A stretch of 64,000 bases of DNA from Nostoc sp. NIES-3756 (lineage in GTDB: Bacteria > Cyanobacteriota > Cyanobacteriia > Cyanobacteriales > Nostocaceae), in NCBI RefSeq assembly GCF_001548375.1, contig NZ_AP017296.1, forward strand, positions 1 to 64,000, in the 5' to 3' direction. This document shows positions 22,911-35,503 of this stretch, piece after piece; within the stretch, counting starts at the first letter, position 1, and each line of letters starts with the position of its first letter. The notes under the pieces are model-generated. The model searched no databases, had not been told where the DNA came from, and saw nothing but the letters and a program-made list of their open reading frames with translations. Position numbers and translations under genes: made by a program.

Positions 22911-24302
22911 TTGTGCAGTAAACGCCAAGGACACGAAGAACATCCTAATGAAGATCCTCATAATCGAAATCCTTTTGAAAGAGACTTAGATAGAATTGTA
23001 TTTTCCGAGTCTTTCAGAAGGTTAAAAGATAAAACACAAGTTTTTCCAGTCAATGATAATGATCATGTTCATAATAGGTTAACTCACAGTTTGGAAGTAT
23101 CTTGTATAGGTAGATCACTAGGAAGGATTGTAGGTGTATATATACTTGATAAGCATAAAGAGACATTAGCAGAATTAGTTAACAAAGAAGGATTAAATGA
23201 AGCTAGTTTTGGTGCTATAGTACAAGCTGCTTGTCTCGCTCATGATATAGGTAACCCTCCGTTTGGTCATTCTGGGGAAAATGCTATCCAAGCTTGGTTT
23301 TACTCAGAAACCGGACAAAAATATTTAGAAAACTTAACTCTTAAAGAAAGAGAAGATTTAGAATTATTTGAAGGTAATGCTCAAGGATTTAGAATTATTA
23401 CAAGAATAGAAGGCCAAACTAAGCGTATGGGTATGCAGCTAACATATGCTACTTTAGCTACTTTTAGCAAATACCCTAGAGAGTCATTACTTAATATTGA
23501 GAATAATGATGTTTTAAAACATGAACGCCAAAATAGAACCAGTGCCAAAAAGTATGGTTTTTTCCAGTCAGAGAAGAAAATATTTGAAGAGGTTGCAGAT
23601 AAAGTTGGCTTAATAAGAATCGATGAAAATTTAGCATGGTGGTGTAGACATCCATTAGCTTTCCTTGTAGAAGCTGCTGATGATATATGCTACCTTATTA
23701 TGGATTTTGAAGATGGATTTAATACTGGGTATATTGATTATAATACAACTAGAGACTTACTAATTGATATCGCAGGTGAAAATTATTTAAATGATTTAAA
23801 TCAAGAAGATGACAAATCTAGTAGAAGAGAAAATATAAGATTTTTACGAGGTAAAGCAATTAATAAGCTGATTGATGTAGCTGTGGATTCATTTAAGAAA
23901 CATGAAAGTGAATTACTGGCTGGTAGTTTCGATAGTCCACTGTTAAGCGCTGATAATCAAGAAATAAGTCAAAAGATTAAAAATATCAAGGATAAAATCA
24001 AAGAAAAAGTTTATAAATGCCAAGAAGTTCTTAGTATAGAAGTGGCAGGATATGATGTTGTATCTGGATTATTAAATGAATTTGTAACTGCTGTAAATGA
24101 TGAACCAAGTGTAATATTCATTAAAAGAAATCATAAAGGTGATAAAATTAGAGAAATGCTACCTCGTCAAACAATATTTAATGGACAACTAGGTAATGAA
24201 AGCTATTTAAACATTTTAAAAGTAACAGATTACATATCAGGGATGACTGACTCTTACGCTGTTTCATTATTTAAAAAAATTAAAGGTATCTCTTTAGGAT
24301 AA
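22911..24302 (+). CDS. dGTPase-like HD-domain dNTP triphosphohydrolase
   Basis: 463 residues from a TTG. Domain features are RNPFERDLDRIVFSESFRRL, LTHSLEVSCIGR, the HD pair in AHDIGNPPFGHSGE and the DDICYLIMDFEDG segment, all diagnostic of dGTPase-type hydrolases that split dNTPs into nucleoside and triphosphate. The frame extends upstream to a stop at 22872-22874, and the extra codons read KIEWNKLL, the conserved W..LL opening of the family. However, no ATG, GTG or TTG lies before them, so the true start is odd or damaged. Such enzymes can deplete nucleotides during phage attack; a housekeeping role is also possible. Codon use is AT-rich compared with upstream genes. Confidence 0.8.
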   Translation: MCSKRQGHEEHPNEDPHNRNPFERDLDRIVFSESFRRLKDKTQVFPVNDNDHVHNRLTHSLEVSCIGRSLGRIVGVYILDKHKETLAELVNKEGLNEASFGAIVQAACLAHDIGNPPFGHSGENAIQAWFYSETGQKYLENLTLKEREDLELFEGNAQGFRIITRIEGQTKRMGMQLTYATLATFSKYPRESLLNIENNDVLKHERQNRTSAKKYGFFQSEKKIFEEVADKVGLIRIDENLAWWCRHPLAFLVEAADDICYLIMDFEDGFNTGYIDYNTTRDLLIDIAGENYLNDLNQEDDKSSRRENIRFLRGKAINKLIDVAVDSFKKHESELLAGSFDSPLLSADNQEISQKIKNIKDKIKEKVYKCQEVLSIEVAGYDVVSGLLNEFVTAVNDEPSVIFIKRNHKGDKIREMLPRQTIFNGQLGNESYLNILKVTDYISGMTDSYAVSLFKKIKGISLG

Positions 24303-24393: not shown

Positions 24394-24948
24394 TTAAGAT
24401 TCCTGACAGCTTTGCTGGCGAAGCCATATTATTATTTCTTCAACAAGCTGTTCTACTTGTTTATTACCGTCTACTATCAAATTAGCCATTTTTTTCAATC
24501 TTGTTTGTACTTCTACTTCCGTAGAATGTTCATCAATCTGCTGCAATTCTTCATATTGAGTTAATCCTTTCTCAATTAAGCGACTTTCGCGCGTTTGCTC
24601 ATTTACTGCTATAAAAATAATTAATAACTGTGAGGGAAAAAGAAGCCTCCGCAGCACAGAAACAGCTTCTACATGACGAATACCATCAATAATTAGTGGT
24701 TGTCCTAGCCGCCAATTAGCTTGTTCTAAAACTGAACAACAGAATTGTTCCATACCTTGGTTAATAAGCGATGCACCAACAGACTGCAAAACTTTTCGTG
24801 ATACTTCTATCCCTTGATGCTGTGCGACAGATCGAACATAGTCCCCAAAGCTAACACGTTCCCATTTGAGGCAAGAAGCTATCCTGATTGAAAGCGTAGA
24901 TTTTCCACTGGCAATACTGCCAGAAAAACCGAGAATAATTGGTTTCAC
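24394..24948 (-). CDS. P-loop (nucleotide kinase-like) protein
   Basis: 184 residues from a GTG at 24948, chosen because it overlaps the ASCH stop (GTGA) and places the P-loop near the N-terminus: VKPIILGFSGSIASGKSTLS. Later features are VSFGDYVRSVAQ and IIDGIRHVEAV, which together resemble dephospho-CoA-kinase- and dNMP-kinase-type P-loop kinases. It is the last gene of the overlapping operon. A nucleotide or nucleoside monophosphate substrate is a reasonable guess from the fold. Confidence 0.7.
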   Translation of the reverse strand: MKPIILGFSGSIASGKSTLSIRIASCLKWERVSFGDYVRSVAQHQGIEVSRKVLQSVGASLINQGMEQFCCSVLEQANWRLGQPLIIDGIRHVEAVSVLRRLLFPSQLLIIFIAVNEQTRESRLIEKGLTQYEELQQIDEHSTEVEVQTRLKKMANLIVDGNKQVEQLVEEIIIWLRQQSCQES

Positions 24949-25496
24949 AAAATTCCCAAATTTAATTGTAACTGACCAGAACTTTCCTGCAAAACTACCC
25001 AACCTCGGCGATCTCGTTTCGTAAACTTGATTGGATCAATTGATTTAACGTGTTGAATCCGCATTAAGGTTGCAAATGAAGCAGCTTCACGAGCTTTCCA
25101 AAATTCGGGGTCTTGAGCGCATAAAACTGCTGCAAAATCTTCTCTAATAGTTCGCCATGATTCCTGGTCTAACTGATAAAACCAAACATAATTTACTTGG
25201 CATAATCCAACAATTGGCCCACTGGATTCTTTCAATAAAACAACGTCTCCTTTGCTTACTCGATTGTATGGGGCGAACCTACGAGTAGAAAACCTTGATT
25301 CTACTGTTTTCTTACCATCCAAAACAAATTGGAGGTATGGTTCTACTAAAATAGCTAAGTGGAGCGTAAAAGGTAATGACTCAGACGGATTTAAATCATC
25401 TAAATAATTTTCCCAGAAAGAATCTCCCTGTACTGCTAACCTTAATTGATCAACTAATAATTTTAAAGAATTATGTGTCGTTGCGCTGTTCTCCAA
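24945..25496 (-). CDS. ASCH-domain protein
   Basis: 183 residues. HLAILVEPYLQFVLDGKKTVESRFSTRR and VSKGDVVLLKESSGPIVGLCQV form the ASCH fold (PUA-like), whose known members bind RNA or modified bases, or cut N4-acetylcytidine. The N-terminal 45 residues form an unrelated helical part. The start is a TTG (25496) with AAGGAG about ten bases upstream. It overlaps the previous gene by 26 bp and the kinase gene by 4 bp. Confidence 0.75.
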   Translation of the reverse strand: MENSATTHNSLKLLVDQLRLAVQGDSFWENYLDDLNPSESLPFTLHLAILVEPYLQFVLDGKKTVESRFSTRRFAPYNRVSKGDVVLLKESSGPIVGLCQVNYVWFYQLDQESWRTIREDFAAVLCAQDPEFWKAREAASFATLMRIQHVKSIDPIKFTKRDRRGWVVLQESSGQLQLNLGIL

Positions 25497-26754
25497 AAAG
25501 AAAATTCTCCTTCTGTTCTATATTAACGATATTCTTAATTTGATTTGTCGTGTCAAAGACAAGCTTAGTTTCATCTAAATTTAATGGGCGGTTTAAAGCT
25601 AAACCTACCATTTCATCAGGAGAGATACAAGCAAGCAAAGCCTGCAATATATGCAATAGTACACCCCGCCCTCGACAAGTAAAGATGCGGTTACCAGAAG
25701 TCCAAACATCAACAAACTGACGACGCGAATCTCTCCGGCTTACTGATTGAAGCACATCTCCAGACACAATTGGCATTAATGATGGGTCAGCAAAGCCTGA
25801 TAAAATTGGTTGCCGCACACGTATTCTAACGCCAAACAGTACCAGCTCAATCCATTCATCCTCTTGCTGTAAAAATGTTGGGCGTGGCATTTCTGTGTGA
25901 CGGTTATGCAGAAATACAGCTAGATCACTCCTTCGCCATTCATTGGAAACTGTATGCAGTCCCTCTGCTTTAAGAACATTTACTTCAAAAGGTGGTGATA
26001 CATATGATAGAGAGCTTGGTTCCAAATACATTAGATCAAGACCAAGCTGTTCTGCCCAGTTTAAAGTTTCTATCCATTCTCGCTCAATACCAGGACGAGT
26101 ACCAACGGGGGGCATACTAATAAAAATGTATCCGCCAATTTTACACAGTTGACAAGCTGCCCACAGAAAAGATTTAATATGCTCTGGATACCAGGGTGGA
26201 TCGAGAACAATAGCTGATGCTTGAATATTTGGTAGCGGATGTTGAATCAAATTACAGTGGAATATCTGCCCTTTTAACCCTAATTGACTAAAACTATTGA
26301 TTATAGTATTACTTAACTCAAACAATATCAATTGGCGCGAATATGACTGTTCCAGCCCCATCCTTAGTAAACTGGGAGTTCCAAGCAAAGCAATAGTTTC
26401 GTTCAGGCTTGTCACTTCTACACATTTATTTAATAAATATTGAGACGCTGTATCACTAAATCGCCAATCATAATCAAGAGGATGGGGAATAGGTAATATA
26501 ATTTGGTGGTAATGTGATTGATATTGCTTGTTTAGTCCTTGTACATCTGATTTACTGAAATCAATCAGAATATCGGAAGAAATTCTCTGAGTTTCAGCAA
26601 GGCGTTTAAGAGCTTTAAGGGCTACAGACGGATATACTCCTGGTAGTAAAGCTAGCATTTCATTGAAAGTGGCTGCTCCATTGGCGATCGCTTCAAGCAC
26701 CCAAACATCAACAGCATCTTCAAAAATTTGTGTTTCAGTTTTAGCAACTTTCAT
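25471..26754 (-). CDS. HTH plus methyltransferase-like protein with DPPWY motif
   Basis: 427 residues. The N-terminus (VWVLEAIANGAATFNEMLALL) looks like a winged-helix-type domain. The centre has the Rossmann methyltransferase order: an LLGTPSLLRMG loop in place of motif I, LFELS after strand 2, the HCNLIQHPLP strand, then VLDPPWYPEHI (motif IV of N6-adenine type), and CKIGGYIFISMPPVG (motif VI-like). The glycine-rich motif I is unusual. A further C-terminal domain is unrecognised. It could modify DNA, RNA or nucleotides, or be a non-catalytic relative. It starts 2 bp after the radical SAM gene. Confidence 0.65.
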   Translation of the reverse strand: MKVAKTETQIFEDAVDVWVLEAIANGAATFNEMLALLPGVYPSVALKALKRLAETQRISSDILIDFSKSDVQGLNKQYQSHYHQIILPIPHPLDYDWRFSDTASQYLLNKCVEVTSLNETIALLGTPSLLRMGLEQSYSRQLILFELSNTIINSFSQLGLKGQIFHCNLIQHPLPNIQASAIVLDPPWYPEHIKSFLWAACQLCKIGGYIFISMPPVGTRPGIEREWIETLNWAEQLGLDLMYLEPSSLSYVSPPFEVNVLKAEGLHTVSNEWRRSDLAVFLHNRHTEMPRPTFLQQEDEWIELVLFGVRIRVRQPILSGFADPSLMPIVSGDVLQSVSRRDSRRQFVDVWTSGNRIFTCRGRGVLLHILQALLACISPDEMVGLALNRPLNLDETKLVFDTTNQIKNIVNIEQKENFLFGEQRNDT

Positions 26755-26756
26755 GC

Positions 26757-27764
26757 TTACCTGCCTCGACGAAGAGGTATATCAGTTATATTGCAAGCTC
26801 TTTTCTCAAAAGGAAATCTATTTTCTAACTCTTGTAACCAAGCTTCAATAGCAACTTGCTGATTTTGCAATGCTTCATGAGTATCCTGTTTCAAACGTTC
26901 TTTAACTGGAGTAAACTCCTGAATCTGGAGTGGCACAGTTCTTAGTGGCAAATTTTCATCAAGCATTTGAAGACGATCAACAAAACAACGCATATCTTCT
27001 GCTATACCAACTGCTGATGGGGAAGTAAATGTAGCGTAAGCATATAAGTCAATACCTAACGTTAAAAGCCTTTTCATTAATTCAAACTGTTGGTTAAATA
27101 AAGCAGGCTCGGCACAAGTGTTAAATGCAAATGATTCTGCATTGAAACCCTTGAAGCAACAAACGCGACCGTAACTGGGATATGTAGCGATGAGTTCAAT
27201 GTCTGCATCACAGAGAAATTGCCAGAAATAATCATTACTGAGATTGTCATCAGACCAAAGATAGACTTGGCGTTCTAAGCCACGATTTCTGAGTTCAGTC
27301 ATCATCCAAGGCACCCATTCGGGAACAAGATCCGGCTGGCCACCAGTGAGGTCTATAATAGGTGGTGGATCAGGCTGGTTGATATAGCGATCAATCAAAG
27401 CGGTAGGAGTTAACCAATCTGAGTATTTGGGGTTAGCAGAAAGTAAGTCAAAGGGAACATAGCAATACCAACAACGCCAGTTACAAACTGCGTTTTGGAA
27501 AACCTGCGCCCGAATCATATCTGTTGATGGCAAACCAAGCACTTTGCAGGCGGGGTCAATGGGTAAAGGATTTAGCGGCCACCAAGTGTTACTAAGGATG
27601 CGTCGAAAGTGTCTGATGCGCCCGACACCACCACAGTTAGGAGGTTCACTCAAATCCTTTTCCTGTTCTGTGTTTAGAAAATTGGTGATGAGAAGACGCT
27701 TACCTTTTAAATCAACTGATGCAGATCGATAACGAGATGACAAAGCTTCTGTGTTAATTGCCAT
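26757..27764 (-). CDS. radical SAM protein
   Basis: 335 residues from the ATG at 27764 (MAINTEALSS); 27785 is an alternative. The iron-sulfur cluster motif CNWRCWYC (C-x3-C-x2-C) lies near residue 95, followed by DLTGGQPDLVPEW, the GG(E/Q)P-type SAM-contacting segment. The fold is a radical SAM barrel with no obvious auxiliary cluster domain, though extra cysteines (GRVCCFKG, FNTCAEP) exist. It overlaps the DUF4186 gene by 11 bp and lies 2 bp from the methyltransferase-like gene, so the products probably act together. Confidence 0.8.
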   Translation of the reverse strand: MAINTEALSSRYRSASVDLKGKRLLITNFLNTEQEKDLSEPPNCGGVGRIRHFRRILSNTWWPLNPLPIDPACKVLGLPSTDMIRAQVFQNAVCNWRCWYCYVPFDLLSANPKYSDWLTPTALIDRYINQPDPPPIIDLTGGQPDLVPEWVPWMMTELRNRGLERQVYLWSDDNLSNDYFWQFLCDADIELIATYPSYGRVCCFKGFNAESFAFNTCAEPALFNQQFELMKRLLTLGIDLYAYATFTSPSAVGIAEDMRCFVDRLQMLDENLPLRTVPLQIQEFTPVKERLKQDTHEALQNQQVAIEAWLQELENRFPFEKRACNITDIPLRRGR

Positions 27765-28413
27765 TGCTTCTCTTACCCTTCTCATCTTCTTTAGACGACT
27801 TTTCAGGAGTTATCTTTCTTATTCGTGGTACTTTTTCTCCATTTTCTGTAAGATATGATAGTCGTTCTTCAATATAAAGTATTACTAAGTTTGTGAAATA
27901 TTCAAGCTCTGTTTCTGTCAACTCGTGGCCAACAGGAATATTGTGCCAGTATTCTATACATTTACGGCAACAACAGGCTGTGGCGTGTTGAGCATAATGA
28001 ATAGCAGTGGCTTTCTCTGAATCATCTCTTGGAGTTTGGAGGCCGTCGATATAACGAGGTTCTGCCAAACCTACTGATTTGTATATCTCTTTTTTAGCTG
28101 CAACTCGTAACCCAATTTTACCTTTGCGACGAGCATGATTAATAGCTTTTTGACTAATTTCAACATGCCACATATGATGTCGAAAAAGTTCAGTTTTGAG
28201 ACATTGAAAAGTATATGTAGCATCTATAAGGTTACGTTTGTAAACTCGCTTCCAGTCAACCAACTCTACTCCACATTCACGGCATTGACCAAATTGTTTA
28301 GCTGCTTTCATTTCCTCATTTGGTAAAAAGCAGTGCAAATTCTGTTTACAATTTGAACTTGTACATGTAAACCTAGTAGGTTCTAGTTTCTCTTCTGCAT
28401 TCCATGTTGACAT
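27754..28413 (-). CDS. zinc-ribbon-DUF4186 protein
   Basis: 219 residues. Residues 15-50 hold a cysteine cluster (CTSSNCKQNLHC ... CRECG) like a zinc ribbon. The C-terminal half matches DUF4186: KGKIGLRVAAKKEIYKSVG, then IHYAQHATACCCRKCIEYWHNIPVGHELTETELEY. DUF4186 has unknown function; its conserved QHAT..CCR.C..KWH segment could bind metal. The Lys/Asp/Glu-rich tail overlaps the radical SAM start. It follows the ImmA/IrrE gene by 38 bp. Confidence 0.7.
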   Translation of the reverse strand: MSTWNAEEKLEPTRFTCTSSNCKQNLHCFLPNEEMKAAKQFGQCRECGVELVDWKRVYKRNLIDATYTFQCLKTELFRHHMWHVEISQKAINHARRKGKIGLRVAAKKEIYKSVGLAEPRYIDGLQTPRDDSEKATAIHYAQHATACCCRKCIEYWHNIPVGHELTETELEYFTNLVILYIEERLSYLTENGEKVPRIRKITPEKSSKEDEKGKRSNGN

Positions 28414-28451
28414 AAGTTAAGAATTTTTAATTAATGAAGCTTGGTTAGTGT

Positions 28452-29918
28452 TCAAATATTAGATAAAGCTCGTAACAGAAGATTACGATCAACTTCATTC
28501 AAAGTTCCAAAGTTAGCTCGTTCTAATAAATAATCCCTCGCTATCTGCCAAGGATCAGCATAGTCTATATCCTCAGTTTGCAAGTTAGTTGCAGTTCCCC
28601 ACCAGTTTTTGCCTTCTAATGACAAACGAAACGCCATGTAGTTAGCTAGTGAAGCGACTGATACATTTTCTCTAGCTGCAACTAAAGGAACAATTTTCTT
28701 CAACCGCTCTATACTTCCTTTCGCTTCTTGCTGGCATAATTTGACTAATTCCTCAGCACGACCATCGAGTATAATATGTCCTGCAAATCTATTTGCTGTT
28801 AGTTCTTCATTTGAACTCCATTGCTCTTCACTTGCTTCACTATCTTCAAGAACTATTCGTTCTTCCAGTTCTGGCTCTTGAGCTGCGTGCCATAGTTCAT
28901 GAAGAAGGTCAAAAAGCCAACGGGCTGCTGACTTTGTTTGCTGCTTAAGAACTATAACGTTACGACCTTCTACACGCCAGAAAGCACCGTGAAAGGCACT
29001 TGAATCATTCAGGGGTAGGACTGGCACTCCTAAACTCCATAAATAATGCAGCGCGTGTTTAAAAGTTAGAGAACCATAAGTAGACAAAATCGCTTCCCGA
29101 ACTTCATCAGGATTTGCAGGAATTGTTTTTTTAGGTAAGTGTGATGTAGCATCAAGTACAAGAAGTGCCAGAAAATGCGCGTAAAGAGTGTAGGCACTTA
29201 AACGACGCTCATCTGTTCCCTTGCTTACTTTAAAACGAACCGTTGCTAAGGCTGCTGTATTTAGTTGAAGTGGACTGGAACTAAAGATAGCAGCTGGTGC
29301 CAATCCGAATATTCGGTTTAAAATTGCTGATGCTCGCAGAGCTATACTGCCTGTTTGATCTTCAGACATATCATCTGCTTGCAAATTTCTCAAAACTGAT
29401 TGGGGAAGAAGTCTTTTAATAACGAAGTCGCGCTCGATTCCAACTTGCTTTAAGCGATTAAACAGAGTGTTTAGTGAAACTTGAGCATTGGGTAAAAAGA
29501 CATCTTCTCGTATTTTAATTCCAAGAGCTTGACTTACTTCTATTAATCGTGTAAGGCTAGCGGAAGCATATTCTGTATCTTCGTAGCGTTGTATCTGTTG
29601 CTCTTTAATTCCAAGCCTATCAGCCAAATCTTTTTGACTAAGGCCAGCAGCAATGCGTGCTTTGATAAGAGCAAGTGGTAGCTCTTCTAATGATTCAAGC
29701 TCAAGCACTTTGTATTTACCGGATTTCAGAGCTTCATACTCCTCAATCTCCTCGCAAAGTTCACTTAGCTGACTCTGTAAGGCATCTCGTTGAGCTTTCC
29801 ACAACAACGGATGAACTCCTTCTCTATTCTCTAAATTTTGGTCAAATCGCGCTAACGCTTCCTCAAACTTTCTTGCTTGAGTTTGTGTTACACGGTACTG
29901 TCTCTCATTCTTAATCAT
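28452..29918 (-). CDS. HTH-ImmA/IrrE-type metallopeptidase
   Basis: 488 residues. The N-terminal 80 residues are helical; then comes an XRE helix-turn-helix (GLSQKDLADRLGIKEQQIQRYEDTEYASASL) at about 90-130. A zinc metallopeptidase region carries HELWH near residue 340 with downstream acidic residues (EELTANRFAGHIIL). ImmA/IrrE peptidases cleave repressors in response to a signal, and paired HTH-peptidase proteins act in toxin-antitoxin and phage-linked regulation. It overlaps the DUF6932 gene by ATGA. It may control the whole operon. Confidence 0.8.
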   Translation of the reverse strand: MIKNERQYRVTQTQARKFEEALARFDQNLENREGVHPLLWKAQRDALQSQLSELCEEIEEYEALKSGKYKVLELESLEELPLALIKARIAAGLSQKDLADRLGIKEQQIQRYEDTEYASASLTRLIEVSQALGIKIREDVFLPNAQVSLNTLFNRLKQVGIERDFVIKRLLPQSVLRNLQADDMSEDQTGSIALRASAILNRIFGLAPAAIFSSSPLQLNTAALATVRFKVSKGTDERRLSAYTLYAHFLALLVLDATSHLPKKTIPANPDEVREAILSTYGSLTFKHALHYLWSLGVPVLPLNDSSAFHGAFWRVEGRNVIVLKQQTKSAARWLFDLLHELWHAAQEPELEERIVLEDSEASEEQWSSNEELTANRFAGHIILDGRAEELVKLCQQEAKGSIERLKKIVPLVAARENVSVASLANYMAFRLSLEGKNWWGTATNLQTEDIDYADPWQIARDYLLERANFGTLNEVDRNLLLRALSNI

Positions 29919-30355
29919 AACTGCAACCCTCCTAAATCTATAGCAACAATGCCTTTCGGGTTACCATTTCTATCAATCTGAAAAAAATCGAGATACGTTT
30001 TTCCTTCCGCATCTGCTATGAAAGATGTTGGAAATAGTTCTCCTCGGTATTTAGCCTTTTGTTTTTCGCGTTTAGAACTCAAATCTAGAAGAATGGGATC
30101 AAGAAGTTCTACATCAACGCCTTTAATGTCCCAACAGCCATCAAAGTCATTAGGACTCTCCTTTTTGGTTACAAAACTGCCATCAATGTAAATAGTCTGG
30201 CAGCCAGCCTTTAACAATGAATCTATGGCGGATTTTAGTCCTTTAAGAAGTTCTTGTCGGCGAGGTGTAATTCCAAATCGTTCCATAAATTCTTGCCATG
30301 TGGCCCAATGCACTCCTGGAGGCAAGTTTCCATCAGGATTAAACTCTGGTATCAT
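29915..30355 (-). CDS. DUF6932 nucleotidyltransferase-like protein
   Basis: 146 residues. FNPDGNLPPGVHWATWQEFMERFG and IYIDGSFVTKKESPNDFDGCWD match DUF6932, a minimal-nucleotidyltransferase-like family with GSF(V/T)..K..P.D.D catalytic-type residues (DGS, then DxD-like NDFDG). Such proteins occur as partners of HTH/peptidase proteins in toxin-antitoxin-like pairs. It is the first gene of the seven-gene unit; TTGTTGTGxT-type direct repeats lie upstream (around 30357-30390) and could be regulatory. Confidence 0.7.
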   Translation of the reverse strand: MIPEFNPDGNLPPGVHWATWQEFMERFGITPRRQELLKGLKSAIDSLLKAGCQTIYIDGSFVTKKESPNDFDGCWDIKGVDVELLDPILLDLSSKREKQKAKYRGELFPTSFIADAEGKTYLDFFQIDRNGNPKGIVAIDLGGLQL

Positions 30356-30423: not shown

Positions 30424-31077
30424 TTAATTGTTTTTAACTTTTCTCAACACCAGCAATATCTCCCTAACCGCCGCTTTCTCTTGCTCCATCTGCTGAACGC
30501 GCTTCAGTTGGCGCTTGGGAATGTACCTGAATGATTTGAAATTGCGATCTATTCCCGCACCGGAAACCGCCGCATCATCTCCGCCAAAACCACAGCCTCA
30601 CTATCCGGCGTGTACACAACCTCACCTGACATCGCAATCACAATCCTGTTTTTCCTAGCCTACTCAAACCAATCCTTCACAGCAGACTTGACCTGTGCGG
30701 ATTCCGGTTTTTTACCCTCCTAGCAACTTGACCCCCTTCCAAGTCCGCAATGCCTCCTTCAAATACGCGATCACTTCACATTGTAGAAAGTAGTTTCTGA
30801 CTTCTTTTCCTTGGAGAATGCCGGGCATCATGCCCATTTCTTTAAAGTAGTTAACTGTGCGGTAAATATCTCGACACGTCAAACTCTTGCCTGGATATGA
30901 TTTCTCAACCTTGAAGACCCGGTTATCTTCATTTTCTACAAAGTGTTTAAATAAAAACCGATTAACGTTTACTCTCTTGCTGTATCCTAACTACTACCAA
31001 GCAATCTCAATATCAACAGAGTATTTATCCTCAGATTCATACCAGGCAAATGCTATTTCAAATTGCCGTTGTTCCAT
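30424..31077 (-). pseudogene. decayed hybrid of antirepressor-like and replisome-organizer-like genes
   Basis: On the minus strand, residues like WYESEDKYSVDIEIAW, two stops, LGYSKR and YFKEMGM....G..VRNYFLQCE match the intact gene at 35520. The frame then passes directly into VIAYLKEALRTWKGVK, which matches the C-terminal part of the gene at 34421, with later frameshifts and a final MMRRFPVRE before a stop at 30549. The join lies at a shared CEAIA/GAIA-like codon run. A short tail (FRYIPKRQLKRVQQMEQEKAA) continues to 30424 in another frame. It is clearly non-functional. Confidence 0.75.
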
Positions 31078-31838: not shown

Positions 31839-34286
31839 ATGAATAAAAATTTCGAGATAAAAAAAAGATTAAAAATAATACTGCCAGAAGATTGGAGTAA
31901 TAATGATAAAGGAAGATTTTGGGAAGATATAGTAACACCATTGTTTCGTCAACAGAGATGGGAAGCTTTACAAAATGTCGAATTTGAGGGTATGCAAACT
32001 GATATATACATTAAAAGTTTAGACTCTAATGCAAAAGCTCTTGTAGAATGCAAATTTCAAAAAGAGCCTATTGACGCTCCAACTATATTTAAATTAATGG
32101 GACAAGCTAATTATGAGAAAGTAACAGATGCCTACTTGCTATCAGTATCGGATTTGAATGCTAAAGCCAAAGGTGTTGTTGAAAGACATAAAGCTGATCC
32201 TCACAAAAATTTTAACCTAATTGTTTGGAGTTCTGAAACACTCGTTGAAGTTTTTATGTCTATAAAAAATATAGACATTCCCAACATTCATCAAAATAAA
32301 AATATTAATATATTAGCAATTACACTTCTCATAACTCATACAAAAGATTTTTATTGGGTAGCAGAAGAAGTTGGAGAAGATGGAGAGCCAAAACGAGCTA
32401 TTATTTTTCCTATCTTAGAAAACAAGTTTTCTTTGGAAGAATGGAAAACATATTTTGCAAGATATGAAATTTGGCAAGGAGTTGAGATAGAATTAGCAGA
32501 CAAAGACAATTCTGTTACAGAAAAACCTTTTTCTTTTCGAGCTAAAAAAGACCAATTAGAGAATGTAATTTTATCAAAAATCAACCAAGCTGATAGTTTT
32601 GATGATTATCATCGTCCTTGCCGACCAGAAGATTTTTTTGGACGTTCTCAGCCTCAAAAACAGTTTTGGGATTTTTTAAACAATGTAAGAGATCGTAAGA
32701 CAGACCTAAGAGTTGTTTGTTTTACAGGTACTACTGGTGTAGGCAAATCATCTTTGATTCTTAAATTATCAGAAAGTTGTTATCAAAATCCAGATTATAA
32801 GAATAGCTTTTATATTTATCATATTGATGTTACAAGCATTAATCCAACGAAAGCAAATCTTTTTGTTCCAAGTGCTATAAGAAAAGCACTGCAAGAAGCT
32901 GTTAATGATCAATTTATTGAAATCCTTAACCATAAAATAGTTCTTGAGAGTACTGAGCCACCATTTTTTGATTGTGACTCAATTCTATTAACAATAAACA
33001 AGCTAGAAGAAAGTAATAAAACAATTATTATAATTTTTGATCAGTTTGAGGAAATTTTATTTAAAGAATCTTTATCATCTGTTTATAATTCTTTTAAATC
33101 AGTTGCTTATGAAATTGATTCTTTAAAAACAAACATCGTTCTAGGATTTTGTTGGAGAACAGACATTAGCTTGCCTGCAAAACATCAAGCATACTTTACT
33201 TGGCATGAACTTGAGCGCATCAGAAAAAATATCGATTTAAATGATTTTCCTTTCTCAGAAAAAGATTCACAAGAAGTCTTAAATAAATTTGAACAGTACT
33301 TAAAAGGAAATGGTAAACAATTGCCTGCAAGAATAAAAAAATGGTTACTAGAAAATTGCCAAAATTCGCCTTGGTTGATTAAAAAAATTTGTGGTGATAT
33401 ATACAACCAAAATTTAAATAATTCATATTTTAAGGATAAAAAAATTATTACTAAATTTGATATCAAAAAGATTTTTGATAGAGACATGAGTAGATATATT
33501 ATTTCAGAGGAACATGAATCCTGCTTAAAATATGTTGCAGCTAATTCCCCATTACTGAGGACAGATGTATTCACCAAATTTGATGTTAGTGTAATTAATA
33601 GCCTTTTAGCTAATAAATTAATAATTGAAACTGGAAATAATTATAAAATATATTGGGATATATTTCGTGAGTATATTGTATATGGAACATTGCCTACAAT
33701 AAATATCAGTTATAAGCCTAGAACGCAGATTTCTACCTTATTAAAAATATTAAAATTGCTCAATCATAATTTAACAAAATCAGAGTTAGCTAATGCAATT
33801 AATTTAAAAGAAAGTACTGTTCAAAATGCCCTTGATGATTTACGTAATTTTTTTCAGGTCGAACAAGACAGAAAAACCGGAAAAATAACTGTTTCAAAAG
33901 AAATTGTAAAATTAGGAGATAATGAATTATCTGACATTTTAGCAGAACAGATAGAATCTCATATAGTTATTAAAGAAATATATAATAAACTTAAGCCAGA
34001 TCAATCGCTTTGGTATGATGAATTTAAAAAAATTCTACAAAAGAAATCTTCAGAAGAGCAAAAGCTAAAACCCGATACTCCAAAAGATTATGCTAGTAGA
34101 ATGCTTTCATGGTTTTGTTTTGCAGGATTACTTGAAATTAGGCAAGATTGGCTGATAGCCAGACCAATTAATGTTAGACAAGGTAAACAGAAAGGAAAAG
34201 CATCAGAGTGTGAATTTAAAAAAAGAAAAATACGTAAATCTGAAATTAAGCCGGGACAGTTAAGCTTATTAGATTTATTAAATTAA
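31839..34286 (+). CDS. nuclease-STAND ATPase, candidate defence protein
   Basis: 815 residues, AT-rich. The N-terminus has a PD-(D/E)xK-type nuclease pattern: WEDIVTPLFRQQRWE, D55 in MQTDIYIK and E70-x-K72 in ALVECKFQ, as in Mrr-like restriction endonucleases. A middle P-loop domain follows a DFFGR lead-in: Walker A GTTGVGKSS near residues 295-303, Walker B IIIIFDQFEE near 398. The C-terminus has winged-helix-like parts (KSELANAINLKESTVQNALDDL). This nuclease-NTPase-sensor order is that of STAND-type anti-phage proteins (Avs-like). ATG at 31839. No partner gene is needed, and it stands alone beside the other defence-like genes. Confidence 0.75.
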   Translation: MNKNFEIKKRLKIILPEDWSNNDKGRFWEDIVTPLFRQQRWEALQNVEFEGMQTDIYIKSLDSNAKALVECKFQKEPIDAPTIFKLMGQANYEKVTDAYLLSVSDLNAKAKGVVERHKADPHKNFNLIVWSSETLVEVFMSIKNIDIPNIHQNKNINILAITLLITHTKDFYWVAEEVGEDGEPKRAIIFPILENKFSLEEWKTYFARYEIWQGVEIELADKDNSVTEKPFSFRAKKDQLENVILSKINQADSFDDYHRPCRPEDFFGRSQPQKQFWDFLNNVRDRKTDLRVVCFTGTTGVGKSSLILKLSESCYQNPDYKNSFYIYHIDVTSINPTKANLFVPSAIRKALQEAVNDQFIEILNHKIVLESTEPPFFDCDSILLTINKLEESNKTIIIIFDQFEEILFKESLSSVYNSFKSVAYEIDSLKTNIVLGFCWRTDISLPAKHQAYFTWHELERIRKNIDLNDFPFSEKDSQEVLNKFEQYLKGNGKQLPARIKKWLLENCQNSPWLIKKICGDIYNQNLNNSYFKDKKIITKFDIKKIFDRDMSRYIISEEHESCLKYVAANSPLLRTDVFTKFDVSVINSLLANKLIIETGNNYKIYWDIFREYIVYGTLPTINISYKPRTQISTLLKILKLLNHNLTKSELANAINLKESTVQNALDDLRNFFQVEQDRKTGKITVSKEIVKLGDNELSDILAEQIESHIVIKEIYNKLKPDQSLWYDEFKKILQKKSSEEQKLKPDTPKDYASRMLSWFCFAGLLEIRQDWLIARPINVRQGKQKGKASECEFKKRKIRKSEIKPGQLSLLDLLN

Positions 34287-34427: not shown

Positions 34428-35503
34428 TCCCCCACCGGATACCGCCGCATCATTTCCGCCAGTGCCACAGCCTCCCCATCCGGCGTGTACACCACCTCCC
34501 CCGACATAGCAATCACAATCCTGTTTTTCCTCGCCCACTCAAACCAAGCCGTTACCTCAGATTTAGCCTGTGCGGATTCCGGCTTCCTCCCTTCCTTACA
34601 AGCAGCAACAAACACAGCCTCCGGTGACTTAATCTCCTTCCAAGTCCGCACTGCCTCCTTGAGATATGCGATCGCCCCTGGTACATTCACCCAATACCGC
34701 TTAACTGTACGCTGAATCTCTCCGTTTAAACGAAACTGCGGAGTACAAGGAATCTCCCTCAACTGCTGCAAAACATCCTGAACCTCCTGCGGACTCGGCT
34801 GTATTGACTTTTCTTGTGGTTCAATGTAATCATCATCACCAGAGTCTTCATCACAAAAATTTGACGCAACCGGGGCGGCGGAAGAATGGCCCTCATGAGT
34901 ATCTGTCTTGCTAGTCGAGTTAATCTGTTGTGGTTCATCAACGAAGTGAGTAACTTGGGGTAGTTCTAACTCTGGGGTTTGCCTTGCCCCTTCCTGGTCG
35001 CATTCCAAAATCTCGTTTTCCAGTTCCTCACTTTTAAAAGGCGCAACAGCAGTGTGTTGTTGTGAAGCGAAGTCTTTGAGAGGGAAGTCTTTGTTATGAT
35101 CTGCCGTGTGTGAGCAGATCGATGTGTCCAAAACGCTCACATCGATTTGCTGATTTTGACAAATGCGATTCCATAAGGCTTGGACGTTCTCGACGTTAAC
35201 CGTGAACCAGTTGGCTTGATACCAAGTTTTCTCACTGTGACGACACACATCAATCAACTTGAAATTATCCCTCAAGTTGGCGATCGCTCGTCTGATTGCT
35301 GATGTGGAGAGAAATGGCAGTGTTTGCCCCCAATCCTTGAGTGTCTTCCAAAACCATCGCCGTCCATCACGTTTAATGTGTTTAGAGATTTGGCAGAAGT
35401 AATGAATCTGCTGGAGTATTACCGCTTCTTCTAAACCAATCTCTGCGGCCAACAAAGGAGGAACCAACAGAGGGGATTCAGGTGTGATTAATTTACTGGT
35501 CAT
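34421..35503 (-). CDS. replisome-organizer-like plasmid replication protein
   Basis: 360 residues. N-terminal about 110 residues (PLLVPPLLAAEIGLEEAVILQQIHYFC, GRRWFWKTLKDWG, TSAIRRAIANLR) match the winged-helix part of phage/plasmid replisome organizers, as in DnaD/O-type initiators. A disordered acidic linker (about 150-225) precedes a helical C-terminal domain (AIAYLKEAVRTWKEI ... WFEWARKNRIVIAMSGEVVYTPDGEAV). A decayed copy of this C-terminus lies at 30549-31077. It sits 16 bp downstream of the antirepressor-like gene, so both are one transcript. Confidence 0.7.
   Translation of the reverse strand: MTSKLITPESPLLVPPLLAAEIGLEEAVILQQIHYFCQISKHIKRDGRRWFWKTLKDWGQTLPFLSTSAIRRAIANLRDNFKLIDVCRHSEKTWYQANWFTVNVENVQALWNRICQNQQIDVSVLDTSICSHTADHNKDFPLKDFASQQHTAVAPFKSEELENEILECDQEGARQTPELELPQVTHFVDEPQQINSTSKTDTHEGHSSAAPVASNFCDEDSGDDDYIEPQEKSIQPSPQEVQDVLQQLREIPCTPQFRLNGEIQRTVKRYWVNVPGAIAYLKEAVRTWKEIKSPEAVFVAACKEGRKPESAQAKSEVTAWFEWARKNRIVIAMSGEVVYTPDGEAVALAEMMRRYPVGEW

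Follow-up and report, generated by a model that had tools for sequence, protein, structure and literature searches.

A mobile seven-gene radical SAM cassette in Nostoc sp. NIES-3756, likely an undescribed anti-phage system

Investigating the first 64 kb of contig NZ_AP017296.1 of the cyanobacterium Nostoc sp. NIES-3756 (64,000 nucleotides, hereafter the window; the contig has 447,304 bp and is one of three in a genome of 6.99 Mb), we observed seven open reading frames (ORFs) on the minus strand at 24394..30355, named A to G in the order of transcription. They form one compact unit, found in the same complete order in 37 of 62 flank-complete loci from many phyla. This cassette is mobile and jointly inherited, occurring on plasmids and in one transposon-like insertion, and it likely represents an undescribed anti-phage system, with DNA damage as the predicted trigger and a nucleotide of altered chemistry as the predicted product. 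Computed here were the unit, its distribution, the motifs and the predicted folds; switch, substrate, product and effect on phages we infer.

All six junctions are overlaps or gaps of 2-38 nucleotides (nt), and the coordinates and spacing given in the initial annotation were confirmed. Gene A (29915..30355, 146 amino acids (aa)) encodes a nucleotidyltransferase-like DUF6932 protein (PF22014, 148.2 bits, cutoff 27), whose GS...DxD motif, presumably of the nucleotidyltransferase type, is present in 59 of 59 relatives. It overlaps by 4 nt (ATGA) with B (28452..29918, 488 aa), a predicted repressor-peptidase switch in which a helix-turn-helix (HTH) domain (HTH_3, 40.7 bits, cutoff 23) is fused to an M78 (ImmA/IrrE) metallopeptidase (Peptidase_M78, 31.7 bits, cutoff 22). 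After a gap of 38 nt follows C (27754..28413, 219 aa), consisting of a four-Cys N-terminal segment and DUF4186 (PF13811, 76.2 bits, cutoff 25); CCxxC is found in all 76 relatives, and C17, C22, C44 and C47 are invariant in the alignment. Gene D (26757..27785) encodes a radical S-adenosylmethionine (SAM) enzyme with CxxxCxxC. Its probable start is ATG 27764, close to the start site of most aligned relatives, which gives an overlap of 11 nt with C (32 nt if counted from the upstream ATG at 27785). Only 2 nt separate D from E (25471..26754, 427 aa), which begins with a helical domain, continues with a class I methyltransferase-like domain bearing DPPW and ends in a region that contains a TSGNR motif. 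E in turn overlaps by 26 nt with F (24945..25496, 183 aa), an ASCH-domain protein (PF04266, 21.4 bits, cutoff 21.2) keeping the motif K..[ED][ST]RF in 69 of 73 relatives. The last gene, G (24394..24948), encodes a P-loop nucleotide-kinase-like protein (AAA_17, 27.9 bits, cutoff 27), with the P-loop kept in 75 of 76 relatives and UPF0200/AdkA-like 3lw7 as its best full-length profile match (E 3.1e-14); its start is GTG 24948, as in relatives such as that of locus L007 (a TTG at 25002 is the longer alternative), giving a 4-nt overlap (GTGA) with F. The domains named earlier for A, B, C, F and G thus all score above their Pfam cutoffs, and the radical SAM assignment of D holds by its CxxxCxxC motif and its predicted fold, although its Radical_SAM score lies under the cutoff (23.3 versus 29.5). 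Scans for promoters and terminators gave sites no commoner than in shuffled sequence (16 versus 16.1 and 6 versus 5.8, respectively).

The cassette is not a chance neighbourhood, its content and order being kept in distant genomes. Genome contigs were scanned with a profile of gene D and two strict peptide patterns, one or the other of which fitted 206 stretches; 84 of them coded for a relative and the best 80 were kept, which together with the window and four annotated plasmid loci gave a set of 85 loci. Iterated searches with hidden Markov models (HMMs), seeded with the window proteins, recovered D in 84 of these loci, which had been collected through D. Of the other genes, B, C and G were each seen in 76 loci, F in 73, E in 69 and A in 59, with many contigs ending within the cluster; three of the 76 matches to B are not full length, at least one of them (L032) being a short HTH away from the cluster. 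Among the 62 flank-complete loci (at least 4 kb upstream and at least 3.5 kb downstream of D), the one-strand order ABCDEFG accounts for 37, BCDEFG for six and DEFG for five; the remaining 14 are otherwise arranged, two of them with D alone on its strand. F is fused with G in L018, B with G in L038, and E with F in both L055 and L057. For each of A, B, C, E, F and G, the pairwise distances correlate with those of D (Spearman from 0.32, for G, to 0.58, for A; 53-64 loci, each above 200 permutations), and the genes therefore mostly travel together, with some exchange. The co-conservation which had been proposed as a check on the cluster was consequently observed, and far beyond the cyanobacteria.

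Gene E is missing from part of the loci. It was not found in 16 of the 85 loci, some of which are cut by contig ends, and a genome-wide search in seven E-less loci with intact surroundings recovered it in none, as against 21 of 21 other searched genomes; E can therefore be regarded as a dispensable step. Presence and absence of E amount to six changes on the D tree, and at the level of the locus L056, L069, L076, L083 and L085 likewise have no E. In the locus of an archaeal metagenome-assembled genome (L015:9984-12160), the E gene is split by an inserted ORF of 284 aa, which we take to encode a zinc-finger IS transposase, and G lies on the other strand.

The distribution of the cassette is wide and sparse. 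A tree of D (81 rows, quick method) carries 14 phylum labels, including that archaeal genome (possibly mis-binned), and shows 25 label changes, where the minimum is 13 and the mean for shuffled labels 54.4; the cyanobacterial rows form one group. D and E were each found in one of 386 sampled genomes of the window's phylum, that is, in the window's own genome. Such rarity and such a mixed-phylum tree speak against a niche metabolic or natural-product pathway with no tie to conflict, as do the surrounding defence models and the integrases nearby (at least 12 phage-integrase Pfam matches among 425 flank ORFs). That account could draw on the several enzymes without a recognised nuclease, as well as on the TylF-like methyltransferase adjoining G in two loci (L015, L017), and we consider it very improbable.

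Six plasmid hits were obtained, each typed conjugative. One case is that of Tolypothrix PCC 7712, for which a published report describes an insertion of 18,401 bases missing from PCC 7601, its genes being listed with no role proposed in the section concerned (PMC9679502). Our comparison placed flanks of 100% identity 18.6 kb apart on the cassette plasmid and 0.24 kb apart on the sister plasmid, and the cassette sits inside this 18.4-kb insertion together with genes for a recombinase, a DDE integrase, an AAA ATPase and a site-specific integrase. The recombinase-DDE-AAA stretch has matches of its own on other plasmids (Calothrix, Anabaena); in Aulosira the match covers the cassette and the next two genes but not this stretch. 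For the window cassette no clean boundary or empty site can be given, because its flanks match Nostoc-type plasmids at scattered places (17 of 23 and 24 of 39 plasmid records with similar flanks are from Nostoc). Loci L002 and L003 carry two further genes downstream of G (products of 1,012 and 1,223 aa, the latter annotated as helicase-like or ATP-binding), a module that follows the cassette in cyanobacterial plasmids and matches Trichormus plasmids independently.

Supported by its neighbours, the cassette looks to be placed in defence islands. For 84 loci we collected, on either side, at most three ORFs lying no further than 5 kb away; with inserts this gave 426 ORFs, of which 425 were scanned against PADLOC and Pfam, the best 25 families per set being considered. 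Among the families listed, PADLOC matches at 1e-10 included dGTPase, pAgo, restriction-modification, DISARM, BREX, AbiE, Bil, Nsn, IetA and TIR. As a control, 9-kb stretches away from the cassette were taken from the same contigs in 20 of the genomes: 137 PADLOC models were matched among 140 flank ORFs and 51 among 130 control ORFs, a comparison which is supportive and carries no test statistic, since the models overlap and we chose the positions. The listed flank families of these 20 loci include AbiE, Bil, IetA, HNH and capP, those of the controls mad3, mad8, mad6, PD-T4-6, AriA and HerA. A mobile setting in defence islands is supported by the flank scans and by the Tolypothrix insertion, and the dGTPase and nuclease-STAND genes that the initial annotation had pointed out beside the cassette are both present. 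The latter (31839-34286; Mrr_cat, 30.1 bits, cutoff 21) lies between direct repeats at 30553-30772 and 34428-34673 (174 and 47 nt, 83-85% identity); in Nostoc plasmids blastn brought its two sides closer together, an outcome that the repeat alone could account for, and the gene is possibly a separate insertion.

An origin from phages with modified bases, as had also been proposed, found no backing: D has no relative in phage records nor, by peptide-pattern scans, in viral contigs, and a phage origin of the cassette was rejected on these grounds. Among the viral contigs, three encode an F-like protein and two a short E-like form. The F-like ASCH proteins (L107:534-1058, L108:5902-6426 and L109:5815-6414; 41-53% identical) are accompanied by no other cassette gene detectable by HMM; L107 and L108 represent one shared sequence, in which a Cys-rich protein, presumably of the DUF5131 type, is encoded about 1 kb from the F-like gene. 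The gene of the short E-like protein (about 310-340 aa, PHPLD[FY]DWR) overlaps with the next one, which encodes a protein of 477-497 aa (L110:5986-8354, L111:742-3110 and the plasmid loci L112-L114), annotated as metallophosphoesterase on three plasmids. L110 is presumably a P4-type satellite, judging from AlpA-like and primase-like ORFs, and its pair has no near DNA match in E. coli genomes. In two rhizobial plasmids (L112:9199-11482, L114:3589-5888), a 533-aa adenylosuccinate-synthetase-like protein is encoded beside this unit, followed by a 229-aa protein without a solved relative; in L112 the first 180 residues of the 533-aa protein fall outside the synthetase match and begin with a P-loop.

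How the cassette may be controlled is indicated by gene B. HExxH is found in 73 of 76 relatives (71 of 73 full-length ones), and PADLOC matches are to RmrA (41.9 bits), capP (20.0) and capH (18.3), which suggests a protease-controlled switch and is the reason why the toxin-antitoxin-like front pair of the initial annotation is not preferred. An HTH repressor together with an M78 peptidase bearing HExxH is likewise found in the CapH/CapP module of CBASS and in PprI/DdrO, whose damage-triggered derepression would fit the cassette; unlike in CapH/CapP, both halves reside in a single 488-aa protein, and the cyclic-nucleotide synthase that a CBASS operon would carry was not found, as no PADLOC cyclase model matched any of the seven proteins. 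An excerpt of PMC10904395 states that single-stranded DNA activates the cleavage of CapH by CapP. The nucleotidyltransferase-like A and the repressor/antitoxin families matched by B could also be read as the regulator or antitoxin of a plasmid-stabilising addiction cassette, in which D to G would make a toxic metabolite. Plasmid carriage would agree with this, and ASCH and AAA_17 genes occur as well in PIN-GNAT-EVE operons discussed as toxin-antitoxin systems (PMC7641849, in part). Seven genes including a radical SAM enzyme would, however, be costly for such a purpose, no toxin fold is constant, and six loci lie on contigs over 1 Mb, one of them titled chromosome; we hold this explanation to be quite improbable.

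The radical SAM family to which gene D belongs has no name (3191 proteins at E <= 0.001); CxxxCxxC is kept in 83 of 84 members of our set. The top matches of its predicted fold are radical SAM enzymes, the closest among those listed being pyruvate-formate-lyase (PFL) activase, followed by QueE, TYW1, spore photoproduct lyase and RlmN. PFL activase acts on a protein, whereas the substrates of the other four are pterin, nucleobases or RNA. This closest resemblance to a protein-acting enzyme, as far as a predicted fold can tell, weighs most strongly against a nucleotide as the substrate. D might accordingly modify a protein (with C as the obvious candidate) in the manner of PFL activase or a peptide maturase, the modified protein being the effector, and G and F sensing nucleotides or nucleic acids. 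No glycyl-radical enzyme or precursor peptide was recognised near the cassette among the best 25 families per flank set, though, and both the further fold matches and the nucleotide enzymes accompanying some loci point elsewhere; a protein target seems unlikely to us. D differs from PFL activase itself in sequence (12-13% identity in structural alignments) and in a strongly conserved N-terminal region of its own.

These accessory genes, as far as their domains indicate, have nucleotides as their common thread. The dGTPase gene of the window (22911..24302, plus strand) lies tail to tail with G at a distance of 91 nt and is not part of the core; it corresponds to the ordinary model (NF002205, 474.2 bits, cutoff 439), and the anti-phage dGTPase NF041026 was rejected (205.9 versus a cutoff of 400). 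In four other cyanobacterial loci a dGTPase gene follows G by 11-35 nt on the same strand (in L012, close to the end of the contig, its open frame covers only 214 residues). Seven loci have a DCD-like gene (dCTP deaminase-like, PF22769), which lies between C and D in five and shows five changes on the tree; L055 has a MazG-like gene between D and E, and L017 a deoxynucleoside kinase beside G. The nucleotide or base modification initially proposed is hence plausible and favoured by these companions, but they accompany a minority of loci only (dGTPase five, DCD-like seven, deoxynucleoside kinase and MazG-like one each), and the substrate is a prediction. In three alphaproteobacterial loci (L005:11321-12583, L062:12320-13570, L075:8894-10168; two of them near-identical Rhizobium), a DUF763 gene lies directly 3' of G. 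Standalone DUF4186 copies in 11 loci have no neighbour common to most; E. coli yneG (DUF4186) is called an orphan of unknown function in an extract of PMC9283627 and is also listed in PMC11502571 (in part).

Gene E was initially described as a DPPW methyltransferase-like protein. The motif, seen in adenine-N6 methyltransferases, and the methyltransferase-like domain are indeed there, but the sole Pfam match (PF10237) is below cutoff (17.8 versus 23.2), and the closest predicted fold among the matches listed is BpsA, with agreement over the overall fold. Identity with BpsA, a branched-chain polyamine synthase, was nevertheless rejected: GDDD, called indispensable in BpsA in a passage of PMC12979288, occurs in none of 69 E proteins, which have DPPW and a longer C-terminal region instead. 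Taken with TYW1, RlmN and QueE among the fold matches of D, and with ASCH/PUA domains which bind, or are predicted to bind, modified bases (PMC7641849), DPPW and the sub-cutoff PF10237 match could indicate that the cassette marks bases in DNA or RNA, with F as the reader and no restriction partner in the operon, possibly as a protection against nucleases of competing elements. Marking the bases of a polymer needs no free-nucleotide kinase, however, E, the protein most likely to set the mark, occurs nowhere in the seven tested genomes that retain all or most of the other genes, and no nuclease is constant; we assign a low probability to this explanation.

The reading we prefer, tentatively and with less than even confidence, is that of an inducible anti-phage system in which D, G and F make and handle a modified nucleotide. 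B would repress the operon via its HTH domain until single-stranded DNA or some other sign of infection activates B's own M78 peptidase, which would lift the repression as in CapP/PprI; A, the small nucleotidyltransferase-like protein overlapping B, may tune it. With a [4Fe-4S] cluster and SAM, D would alter a nucleotide or its base by radical chemistry, G would phosphorylate the product of D or its precursor, and E, in most but not all loci, could alkylate or methylate the product. F may bind the modified base, and the Cys-rich, probably metal-binding C could assist D or B. The product of this pathway would harm phage replication; tight control would protect the host, as would, in some loci, enzymes that clear nucleotides (dGTPase, DCD-like, MazG-like).

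Comparison with known systems revealed partial likeness only. The prokaryotic viperins (pVip) with a kinase share a radical SAM enzyme, a P-loop kinase and the nucleotide product predicted here; PADLOC matches are weak (D to pVip 19.3 bits, G to VakA 28.2 and to pVip-kinase 15.3), and D was rejected as a viperin (NF038283, 13.6 bits versus a cutoff of 180), although the logic may be alike. Unlike in pVip, the nearest fold of D is PFL activase and five further genes belong to the cassette. PIN-GNAT-EVE operons likewise contain an ASCH protein, an AAA_17 ATPase and in some cases an XRE-type HTH (PMC7641849, as far as available), but PIN, GNAT and EVE are absent from the seven genes, which have radical SAM, DUF4186 and BpsA-like members instead. 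In PADLOC (v2.0.0, 2023) the core genes strongly matched no named system; the matches of A to G are scattered, the strongest being those of A to the candidate PDC-M63A (58.5 bits) and of B to RmrA, and no PADLOC or NCBIfam model scanned describes the seven-gene set. The literature search, whose reach excluded preprints and subscription papers, yielded among the matches listed no description of this system, and no paper for DUF6932 or COG5014. The earlier statement that the cluster matches no known system therefore held in the libraries and literature searched.

The cassette may even embody a new class of immunity, in which a self-cleaving HTH-peptidase switch would turn on a radical SAM pathway to a novel modified nucleotide toxic to phage, and which plasmids and transposons would have carried through bacteria and at least one archaeon; this wider proposal we consider doubtful for now. 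If true, it would add a second radical SAM immune chemistry beside the viperins, and would offer a seven-gene unit of laboratory size for direct work on substrate, product and target. DUF4186, DUF6932 and the radical SAM family of D would furthermore gain a context, and a BpsA-like fold would be seen in a different use.

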